A DNA stretch of 64,000 bases from Lysobacterales bacterium (GTDB lineage Bacteria > Pseudomonadota > Gammaproteobacteria > Xanthomonadales > BPKI01). Position numbers and translations under genes: made by a program. Of the stretch, positions 60,638 through 64,000 are shown piece by piece; the stretch's first letter is position 1, and each line of letters starts with the position of its first letter. The notes under the pieces are model-generated. The model saw nothing but the letters and a program-made list of their open reading frames with translations, was not told the origin of the DNA and did no database searches. The DNA lies in NCBI GenBank assembly GCA_026005055.1, contig BPKI01000001.1:558001-622000 (forward strand), read 5' to 3'.

Positions 60638-62785
60638 TCAGGAGAGGGGCCGCAGCGGCGCCGCGCTGGCCAGCAACCACCGGGTTCCGGCGGCAGCGAA
60701 CCGCACCTGGATGCGGGTCTCGCTGCCCTCGCCTTCGGCGTCGATGACCGTGCCCTCGCCGAAGACGGCGTGGAGCACCCGCTGGCCGATCCGAATGGAG
60801 GGCGAGCCGGAGGATGCGGCGCGAACCTGAGCCGGAGCTCGGGGGCGGAGCGGCTCGACGGCTTCGGCGGGCAGCTCCTCGAGGAAACGCGAGGGACGTT
60901 GGTATTGCGCCATGCCGAAGAGATGCCGAACCTCGGCCCAGCAGAGGTAGAGCTCGCGGCGGGCACGGGTGATGCCCACATAGGCCAGGCGGCGCTCCTC
61001 GGCGAGACGGGCGGGATCGTTCAGAGCGTGGCGACTCGGAAACAGCCCTTCCTCGAGGCCGACCAGGAACACCCGCGGGAACTCGAGGCCCTTGGCCGTA
61101 TGGAGCGTCATCAGCTGCACCGCGTCGCGGCCCGATCCGGCCTCGTGTTCGCCCGCTTCGAGCGCGGCGTGGGCCAGGAAGGCGGCAAGATCGTCGAGCC
61201 CTGCGGCGCGGTCCTCCTCCGAGGCGGAGAAGCGGGAGGCGACGTTGATCAGCTCCTCGAGATTCTCGCGGCGCGACTCTCCGCGCTCCTCTCCCTCGTC
61301 GTGGCCATGACGGGCGAGAAGTCCCGAGCGTTCGAGAACGACTTGGATCAGACTCTCGAGTGGCAGGCGATGGCGCAAGGCCGAAAGCTCGCCGATCAAG
61401 GCGAGAAAATTCCTGAAGGCCTCCCGCACCTTGCCCGAGAGCCGCGCGCCTGCCAGCTCGGCGAGGGCGGCATCCCAGAGGCTCAAACCATCGGCGCGCG
61501 CCCTCTCGCGCAGGGCGGCCATGCTGCGCTCCCCGATCCCGCGCGGCGGTACGGCGATGGCGCGCTCGAAGGCGCCGTCGTCGTGGCGGTGCGCGATCAG
61601 GCGGAGATAAGCGAGGCCGTCTTTGATTTCGGCGCGCTCGAAAAAGCGCAGGCCGCCATAGACCCGGTAGGGGATCCGGCGCGCGATCAGGGCCTCCTCG
61701 AAGGCGCGCGATTGGGCATTGGATCGATAAAGGATGGCGTGATCCTCGGGACGAGCGCCTTTTTCGAGGGCGGCCTCGATTTCGGCGACGACGAAGGCGG
61801 CCTCCTCCCGCTCGTCTTGCGCCTGGAAGAGCTTGACGCGCGCGCCCGGCCCTTGGGCGGTCCAAAGCCGCTTGCCGATCCGATCGGGATTGCGGTCGAT
61901 GATGGCGCTCGCGGCGGCGAGGATGTGCCCGGTGGAGCGATAGTTCTGCTCGAGCTTGTACACCACGGTGCCTTTGAAATCCGCGAGGAACCGGCGCATG
62001 TTCTCCACCCGCGCGCCGCGCCAGCCGTAGATCGATTGATCGTCGTCGCCCACGGCGAAGGCTTCTCCCTCGGCGGCGGCGAGGCGATGGACGAGGCGAT
62101 ATTGGACGGTGTTGGTGTCCTGGAACTCATCCACCAGGACGTGGCGGTAGCGCTGCCGGTAGTGCTGCCGAAGCGCCTCATCGCGGGCGAGCAGCTCATC
62201 CATGCGCAGCAAGAGCTCGGCGAAATCGACCAAGCCCTGGCGGCGGCAATGTCGCTCGTAGGCGTGGTAGAGCTCGACCAGGGTGCGGAAGACTGGGCCT
62301 TCGCCTTCGCCGACGTCGCTCGCCCGCCGCCCTTCGTCCTTGTGGCCATTGATGAAGGCGGCGGTTTGCCGCGGCGGGAAGCGATCGGGATCGAGCTTCG
62401 CCTCGAGGGTGAGGCGGCGGATCAGGCGCAGTTGGTCCTCGGCGTCGAGGATTTGGAAGTCCTGCGGCAATCCGGCTTGCGCCGCGTGCTGGCGGAGAAA
62501 GCGATGGGCGATGCCATGGAAGGTACCGATCGCGAGCCCATCCACCCGGCCGCCGAGCAAAGCGGCTACCCGTGCCCGCATCTCGCCGGCGGCCTTGTTG
62601 GTGAAGGTCACCGCGAGCAGCGACCAGGGCGAAGCGCGCCCTTCGGCGAGGAGGAACGCGATGCGGCGGGTGAGCACCCGGGTCTTGCCCGAGCCGGCAC
62701 CGGCGAGCACCAAGGCGTGACCGGGCGGGGCGGTCACCGCGGCGCGTTGGGCCTCATTGAGGTCGGCGAGGAGCCGCTGGTTCAT
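60638..62785 (-). CDS. uvrD: DNA helicase II (UvrD/Rep family)
   Basis: This superfamily 1A 3'-5' helicase is used in mismatch and nucleotide-excision repair. Its motifs are in order: AGAGSGKTRVLTRRIA, VTFTNKAAGEMR, LVDEFQDTNTVQY, GDDDQSIYGWRGA, LEQNYRST, LMTLHTAKGLEFPRVFL and EERRLAYVGITRARREL. The length of 715 residues matches UvrD. The start is ATG 62785; the TTG before it is not needed. The C-terminal tail has the RapA/PcrA-like end (GQRVLHAVFGEGTVIDAEGEGSETRIQV). Confidence 0.95.
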   Translation of the reverse strand: MNQRLLADLNEAQRAAVTAPPGHALVLAGAGSGKTRVLTRRIAFLLAEGRASPWSLLAVTFTNKAAGEMRARVAALLGGRVDGLAIGTFHGIAHRFLRQHAAQAGLPQDFQILDAEDQLRLIRRLTLEAKLDPDRFPPRQTAAFINGHKDEGRRASDVGEGEGPVFRTLVELYHAYERHCRRQGLVDFAELLLRMDELLARDEALRQHYRQRYRHVLVDEFQDTNTVQYRLVHRLAAAEGEAFAVGDDDQSIYGWRGARVENMRRFLADFKGTVVYKLEQNYRSTGHILAAASAIIDRNPDRIGKRLWTAQGPGARVKLFQAQDEREEAAFVVAEIEAALEKGARPEDHAILYRSNAQSRAFEEALIARRIPYRVYGGLRFFERAEIKDGLAYLRLIAHRHDDGAFERAIAVPPRGIGERSMAALRERARADGLSLWDAALAELAGARLSGKVREAFRNFLALIGELSALRHRLPLESLIQVVLERSGLLARHGHDEGEERGESRRENLEELINVASRFSASEEDRAAGLDDLAAFLAHAALEAGEHEAGSGRDAVQLMTLHTAKGLEFPRVFLVGLEEGLFPSRHALNDPARLAEERRLAYVGITRARRELYLCWAEVRHLFGMAQYQRPSRFLEELPAEAVEPLRPRAPAQVRAASSGSPSIRIGQRVLHAVFGEGTVIDAEGEGSETRIQVRFAAAGTRWLLASAAPLRPLS

Positions 62786-63120
62786 CAACCCATTCTACGA
62801 AGCCGCTCGTTGCACCCGAAGCGCATGCCTCGCCCCGTTCTGGCTTGGGAACGCGAGGCCGCCCGGTCGCAGCCAGGTATGGCCTCGCCAAGCCGGCGAT
62901 GGGATCCGCCGGGATGACATCGTGTGGCCGTTTGATATGAATCTCGTCGGCTTCGGTTTCGCATCGTCCCATCCAGAGCTCGTGTCCGCCGTGGGGGAGG
63001 CTGAGGGAGGGCGCAGCCCCTTACCCAGGACGCGACCGTGCGGGCTGAAGCGCGAGGCGAGCAGGAGCCAGAGGCGGCGTCTTCGGTACCGCCCCTGCGT
63101 GTGGGATCGGCACCATGGCG

Positions 63121-63136
63121 CTCGCAAGCTTGCGAG
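63121..63136. promoter_or_regulatory. Perfect 16-bp palindrome upstream of rpoH
   Basis: CTCGCAAG followed directly by CTTGCGAG, about 28 bp before the CIRCE-like element. It has the shape of a dimeric repressor or activator site; no known factor is assigned. Confidence 0.4.
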
Positions 63137-63164
63137 GATCGCCCCTGGGGAACTTTCGCCGCTT

Positions 63165-63191
63165 TTAGCACTCTCAGTCGCCGGCTGCTAA
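63165..63191 (+). promoter_or_regulatory. CIRCE-like HrcA operator ahead of rpoH
   Basis: TTAGCACTC (63165-63173), exactly nine bases, then GGCTGCTAA (63183-63191). The CIRCE consensus is TTAGCACTC-N9-GAGTGCTAA: the left arm is perfect and the right arm differs at two of nine positions. It lies 13 bp before the chosen rpoH start. The same bases include a possible promoter, TTAGCA with TAAAAT (63189-63194) at 18-bp spacing, so the similarity could partly reflect promoter sequence. Confidence 0.5.
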
Positions 63192-63204
63192 AATGGGGAT
63201 GATC

Positions 63205-64000
63205 ATGGAGACCACTTTCGAAACCGTCGGCGAACTGCTGCCCGCTTCCGAGCAATGGCCGGTTCCGGTCGGCTCGGCGCTGGAGTCCTATATTGCGGCG
63301 GTCAATCGCCTGCCCATTCTGTCGGCGGAGGAGGAGCGGGAGCTCGCGCGCCGCTACCGCGAGGAAGAAGACCTCGAGGCGGCGAGACAGCTCGTGCTCT
63401 CGCACCTTCGCTTCGTGGTGCACGTGGCTCGCGGCTACGGTGGCTATGGTCTGCCGCTCGCCGACCTCATCCAGGAGGGCAACATCGGCCTGATGAAAGC
63501 GGTCAAGCGCTTCGACCCGGCTCAGGGCGTGCGCCTGATCAGCTTCGCCATCCACTGGATCCGCGCCGAGATCCACGAGTTCATCCTGCGCAACTGGCGC
63601 ATCGTGCGGGTGGCCACGACCAAGGCGCAGCGCAAGCTGTTCTTCAATCTTCGCCGCGCCAAGCAGAGGCTGGGCTGGATGAGCCGCGCCGAGGCCGAGC
63701 AGGTGGCTCGGGAGCTTGAGGTGCCGACCGAGACGGTGCTCGAGATGGAGGCCCGGCTCGGCGGGCAGGACCTCGCCTTCGATCCCCTGCCCGAGGAGGA
63801 CGGGGAAGACAGCTTCTCCCCGGTCGCCTATCTCGAAGCGCCGAACGCGGATCCGGCCGAACAGGTGGCCGCAGAAGACCAGGCCGGTTTCCAGCTCGAT
63901 CGGCTCGCGGAAGGGCTCGAAAAGCTCGATGCTCGCTCGCGGGCGATCATCGAGCGGCGCTGGCTGAAGGAACCGAAAGCCACGCTGCACGAGCTCGCTG
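63205..64000 (+). CDS. rpoH: RNA polymerase heat-shock sigma factor sigma-32 (partial, runs off window)
   Basis: The frame is open to the window end. ATG 63205 has GGGGAT just upstream; ATGs at 63193 and 63199 are in the same frame. The product begins [20 protein letters not shown]. Region 1.2/2 blocks are [43 protein letters not shown] and [17 protein letters not shown]. The RpoH box QRKLFFNLR is present at [23 protein letters not shown], which separates RpoH from other sigma-70 factors. Region 4 begins before the cut ([14 protein letters not shown]). It directs heat-shock transcription. Confidence 0.95.

Follow-up and report, generated by a model that had tools for sequence, protein, structure and literature searches.

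HrcA and sigma-32 are usually pictured as parallel heat-shock circuits, because Escherichia coli is without HrcA. In the 64,000-nucleotide stretch of DNA analysed here (the window), a repeat resembling CIRCE, the operator of HrcA, lies at the very start of rpoH, the gene for sigma-32, which raises the question of whether the repressor stands above the sigma factor in this genome and its relatives. The answer offered below is drawn from sequence, namely the operator, its conservation, its loss together with hrcA, the promoter elements that overlap it, the partner genes, and the groESL region with its CIRCE and sigma-32-like promoter. On these grounds, we regard a functional HrcA operator atop the rpoH promoters, acting in a GroEL-sensing repression circuit, as the likely reading; two heat-shock control systems, regarded as separate, are thereby probably wired together at one site. 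The features concerned are as follows.

60638–62788, minus strand: uvrD, DNA helicase II (NF008743, 972.6 bits, cut-off 965)
63149–63176, plus strand: predicted sigmaE-type rpoH promoter, with −35 GGAACTT at 63149–63155, N16, and −10 TCTCA at 63172–63176
63165–63191, plus strand: CIRCE (predicted HrcA operator), with left arm 63165–63173, spacer 63174–63182, and right arm 63183–63191
63186–63194, plus strand: predicted extended −10 TGCTAAAAT, with TG at 63186–63187 and TAAAAT at 63189–63194
63193–64000, continuing past the window end, plus strand: rpoH, sigma-32 (TIGR02392, 407 bits, cut-off 323)

Positions 63165–63191 of the window read TTAGCACTC-TCAGTCGCC-GGCTGCTAA. Scored against the CIRCE consensus TTAGCACTC-N9-GAGTGCTAA, this site has 16 of 18 consensus bases and a spacer of exactly nine; the left arm is perfect, both mismatches fall in the right arm, and the 3′ end lies one base ahead of the first in-frame rpoH ATG (63193). 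These values bear out the original prediction, which had placed a near-consensus CIRCE with exact spacing at the rpoH start. With up to three mismatches allowed, the site is the sole match in the 64-kb window, and none of 100 shuffles contained any match. The same threshold applied to the whole genome (2.44 Mb) yields two CIRCEs, the rpoH site and one further, mismatch-free copy ahead of groES in groESL, while a reversed control pattern gave no match at up to three mismatches across the 2.44 Mb. Given the base composition of the window (68% GC), chance would supply about 0.011 sites of this quality per genome and 1.3e-6 per 300 bp.

The repressor that the prediction invoked is also encoded in the genome, where hrcA scores 220 bits with PF01628 and 326.5 bits with TIGR00331 and is followed by grpE and then the start of a dnaK-like frame, the identities of these two genes being read from their translations. 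A sigmaE gene is present as well (TIGR02939, 295.7 bits, cut-off 236.15), and groESL carries a sigma-32-like promoter, CTTGAAT-N13-CCCCAA, which matches at 11 of 13 positions and is equalled by none of 300 shuffles. Around the operator itself, translation of rpoH may start at ATG 63193, 63199, or 63205 (296 amino acids counted from 63193), and no Shine-Dalgarno sequence is evident ahead of these ATGs (63193–63207). The divergent neighbour uvrD shares its intergenic region with rpoH and has no part in the mechanism. This region also contains a perfect 16-bp palindrome, CTCGCAAGCTTGCGAG, at 63121–63136, which stops 12 bases short of the rpoH sigmaE −35; no further copy with up to two mismatches occurs elsewhere in the genome.

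The original prediction, correct about the CIRCE, overlooked a putative sigmaE-type promoter under its left arm. The −10 of this promoter, TCTCA, starts within the left arm, and the pattern GGAACTT-N16-TC[TC]NA matches the window, both strands considered, at 63149–63176 only. The right arm, in turn, contributes part of the predicted extended −10 TGCTAAAAT, which runs three bases past the end of the CIRCE and fits TGN-TANNNT; if used, this promoter would yield an rpoH mRNA that is nearly leaderless at ATG 63205. Since −10 elements sit in both arms, HrcA bound to the CIRCE would cover both.

A scan of a named collection gave at least 118 stretches with such a site, and because the search pattern fixed most arm bases, these are informative only for the flanks, the spacer, and the free arm positions. 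Among the 118 listed loci, all from other genomes, the only columns of at least 0.35 bit outside the arms and within 60 bases on each side are, counted relative to the CIRCE, GGAACT at −16 to −11, TAA at +9 to +11, which completes TCTAA, and AAT at +27 to +29, which lies outside the CIRCE and completes TGCTAAAAT, with conservation of 0.64, 0.81, and, for the final T, 0.96. GAAC[TC] occupies the −35 place in 75 of these 118 loci, compared with 0, 2, 4, and 4 in four control windows. The other 43, Pseudoalteromonas among them, have the CIRCE without this −35, and the HrcA site is therefore separable from sigmaE. Within the arms, left-arm base 7 and its right-arm mate are C/G in 102 of the 118 listed loci, G/C in eight, and some other combination in eight; this paired change, in which C becomes G on the left and G becomes C on the right, has a Fisher value of 5e-9, from which relatedness has not been removed, and is what a symmetric protein reading the site predicts. 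The changed left arm (CAGTC) is also closer to the sigmaE −10 consensus, and the rpoH site may represent a compromise between two readers, HrcA and sigmaE.

Relatives within the order were compared in 91 of 151 genomes, comprising the 30 best-scoring rpoH loci, the window, and 60 chosen ones (46 belonging to families in which CIRCE matches or hrcA occur, and 14 to families f7–f9). This set takes in 69 of the 70 hrcA-positive genomes but 22 of the 81 hrcA-negative ones; its members are not independent, the Fisher values ignore kinship, and the window's genome is the single member of its family among the genomes compared. A CIRCE with up to four mismatches is found at rpoH in 64 of the 69 hrcA-positive genomes and in 0 of the 22 hrcA-negative ones. 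Both arms contribute to this contrast when the best of each is scored alone with at most one mismatch: the left arm is present in 60 of 69 versus 0 of 22, and the right arm in 63 of 69 versus 2 of 22. Conservation thus extends to both arms in hrcA-positive relatives; of the two outcomes that the original prediction had named as refuting it, a lack of hrcA and conservation of the TAAAAT half alone, neither is seen. A chance palindrome is ruled out by the site statistics together with this comparison, and the CIRCE at rpoH is confirmed as real.

The five hrcA-positive genomes without a standard site are varied: two have arms separated by eight bases, one has five mismatches, one has a shortened site, and one (G018) has none. 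In family f5, the standard N9 site occurs in one of three hrcA-positive members; the remaining two are the genomes just mentioned, whose arms fit the consensus but flank an 8-base spacer. Consensus arms with an 8-base spacer at rpoH were observed at L058 and L059 (genomes G033 and G015), which belong to one genus and are both hrcA-positive. Families f2, f4, f5, and f11 mix hrcA-positive and hrcA-negative genomes, and in each the hrcA-negative members are without the operator. In the order set, GGAAC[TC] stands at a promoter position in 54 of 69 hrcA-positive and 9 of 22 hrcA-negative genomes, and a −35/−10 pair is found in 43 and 9 of them, respectively, compared with 0.5% of shuffles. Four hrcA-negative genomes (G010, G020, G012, and G150) keep GGAACTT and the TGCTAA half and have lost the outer left arm, so that the promoter appears to stay while the operator goes. 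The outer left arm has also decayed (TTAG to CCAG or CCGG) in G060, G100, and G140, hrcA-positive genomes that we call Stenotrophomonas-like because they resemble two named loci, L138 and L177. Stenotrophomonas-like loci (L021 and L025, from G012 and G150, compared with L019, L023, and L026) seem to show the operator at different stages of decay, with the outer left arm lost while hrcA is still there in some, hrcA gone in others, and the sigmaE-type promoter retained throughout. Away from rpoH, 32 of 44 CIRCEs among the matches listed lie within 200 bp upstream of groES, and the conserved HrcA targets in the order therefore look like groESL and rpoH.

The layout extends beyond the order. A scan of the class for a CIRCE followed downstream by an RpoH codon string, run with two gap windows and giving counts that are lower bounds, matched at least 73 of 340 genomes, at least 43 with the longer gap, and at least 115 with the two together. 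Since hrcA was found in 245 of the 340, these correspond to at least 105 of 245 hrcA-positive and at least 10 of 95 hrcA-negative genomes, a contrast weaker than that in the order. Eight of the ten hrcA-negative matches are in genomes less than 90% complete; the nearly complete G284 and G462 have an rpoH CIRCE with no hrcA detected, and may be either real exceptions or cases of missed hrcA genes. One class genome has a tandem pair of CIRCEs upstream of rpoH, about one operator apart (G160:C61:202264-202624). The listed loci of the named collection include Stenotrophomonas, Dyella, Lysobacter, Pseudoalteromonas, Rheinheimera, Alishewanella, Methylocaldum, and Thioalkalivibrio, as well as Nitrosomonas, Thauera, Aromatoleum, Methylovorus, and a few Geobacteraceae/Desulfuromonadaceae bins. 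If Gammaproteobacteria are taken in the wide sense, with betaproteobacteria among them, the rpoH CIRCE is a common predicted site throughout.

The presence of promoter bases in both arms suggests that the inverted repeat could be a by-product of two overlapping −10 elements, with no HrcA action here, and the persistence of the TGCTAA half beside the GGAACTT −35 in the four hrcA-negative genomes named above fits such an origin. The same genomes argue against it, as they lost the outer left arm and kept the promoter parts, which means that the promoters can do without TTAGCAC; for this reason the promoter-only explanation was discarded. The E. coli rpoH region has GAACTT-N16-TCTGA, yet its nearest match to the CIRCE is 8 mismatches off, the 43 of 118 listed loci that keep the CIRCE without the GAAC[TC] −35 run the other way, and the paired arm changes also speak for a reader of the whole dyad. 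We consider a promoter by-product quite improbable.

Even if HrcA binds such sites, the right arm GGCTGCTAA in the window could be too degenerate, leaving a weak operator in decay, and its two mismatches stand beside a perfect groESL CIRCE in the same genome. The perfect left arm weighs against this, as does the frequent occurrence of one of these mismatches (GACTGCTAA) in hrcA-positive relatives; moreover, G295, which has hrcA, combines an identical right arm with a consensus left arm. A weakened operator is, in our estimate, unlikely. The dyad might instead work as an mRNA stem-loop affecting stability or sensing temperature, given that CIRCE-like repeats can occur in 5′ leaders. Here, transcription is predicted to begin within the repeat or beyond it, which would leave the RNA without a complete pair of arms; a single fold predicted from 63183, on the window sequence alone, does not exceed shuffles in stability (z −0.57); and the site tracks hrcA. 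An RNA role is extremely improbable, and an HrcA operator remains the preferred interpretation.

From this operator and its surroundings, we infer HrcA binding, polymerase occlusion, and feedback as the steps of a circuit. In an unstressed cell, free GroEL would keep HrcA active and bound to the CIRCEs of rpoH and groESL; at rpoH, the repressor would hide the sigmaE-type −10 in the left arm and the housekeeping extended −10 in the right arm, allowing little transcription. Unfolded protein would titrate GroEL, HrcA activity would drop, and the repressor would leave and open the promoters, whereupon sigmaE or housekeeping polymerase could transcribe rpoH. The resulting sigma-32 would boost chaperones, including GroESL, and new GroEL would return HrcA to its sites. 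In Caulobacter, according to the available part of one study, GroESL keeps HrcA folded and HrcA activity is GroESL-dependent (PMC8119881). Several observations weigh against the proposed circuit: the two right-arm mismatches in the window, the five hrcA-positive relatives without a standard site, the decayed outer left arms of G060, G100, and G140, and the rpoH CIRCEs of G284 and G462. The expression changes that another study gives for nitrogen-starved Xylella fastidiosa, with hrcA up four-fold, groESL down, and rpoH up two-fold (PMC3224663), would also count against it if that strain carries the rpoH site.

If the operator works as predicted, a chaperonin-sensing repressor would sit above sigma-32 and gate the sigmaE input in much of Gammaproteobacteria; a repressor in that place would mean that chaperonin load sets sigma-32 at the level of transcription. 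Tentatively, and with more doubt than confidence, the merged sigmaE promoter and HrcA operator could be the ancestral layout in the wide-sense Gammaproteobacteria, from which lineages that lost hrcA, such as that of E. coli, kept a bare sigmaE promoter and turned to other sigma-32 controls, chaperonin gating through HrcA having come first. If true, this would explain in evolutionary terms how a bare promoter such as that of E. coli might have come about.

The idea that HrcA acts at rpoH, advanced in the original prediction, is supported by sequence, but the arrangement is not the unusual one it seemed: besides being common in the wide-sense Gammaproteobacteria, it was in print in 2004, when a perfect CIRCE at rpoH was listed for Geobacter sulfurreducens (Rodionov and others, Table 8, PMC545781). 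As far as the consulted portion of that paper goes, G. sulfurreducens resembles the present genome in having a CIRCE upstream of rpoH, another at groESL, and hrcA, and differs in belonging to another class, in having perfect arms at −51, and in that the site alone was reported. Two Geobacteraceae/Desulfuromonadaceae bins from our listed loci (L120 and L171) lack GGAACTT where the −35 would lie. Given the published G. sulfurreducens site, the link between HrcA and rpoH is not new in kind. Our literature search found a CIRCE at rpoH for G. sulfurreducens only, although RegPrecise or Permina and Gelfand may list gamma- or betaproteobacterial sites, and it found no report of a CIRCE overlapping a sigmaE promoter at rpoH. 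Within the literature searched, what looks new is how widely the arrangement occurs, that the operator overlaps a sigmaE promoter, and that it disappears along with hrcA.

With the HrcA/CIRCE systems at groESL and dnaK in Caulobacter, Bacillus, and others, the present site shares the repressor family, the operator consensus, and the N9 spacing, and sensing through GroESL would be as described for Caulobacter in the part of the report cited above (PMC8119881). Unlike in these classic systems, the target here is a sigma factor gene and not a chaperone gene. E. coli rpoH, as given in the MG1655 record, has its −35 and −10 at identical spacing; its region is without a CIRCE, whereas the predicted −10 here is shared with an HrcA operator. 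We take this E. coli element to be the promoter called P3. In Pseudomonas aeruginosa, rpoH P3 is under heat-induced control of the sigmaE type (sigmaE/AlgU), according to the available text (PMC13104619). A dedicated repressor binding an operator at rpoH is also described, in the sections available, for MtrR of Neisseria gonorrhoeae, which, unlike HrcA, is TetR-type, is drug-responsive, and uses a different operator (PMC8053128).
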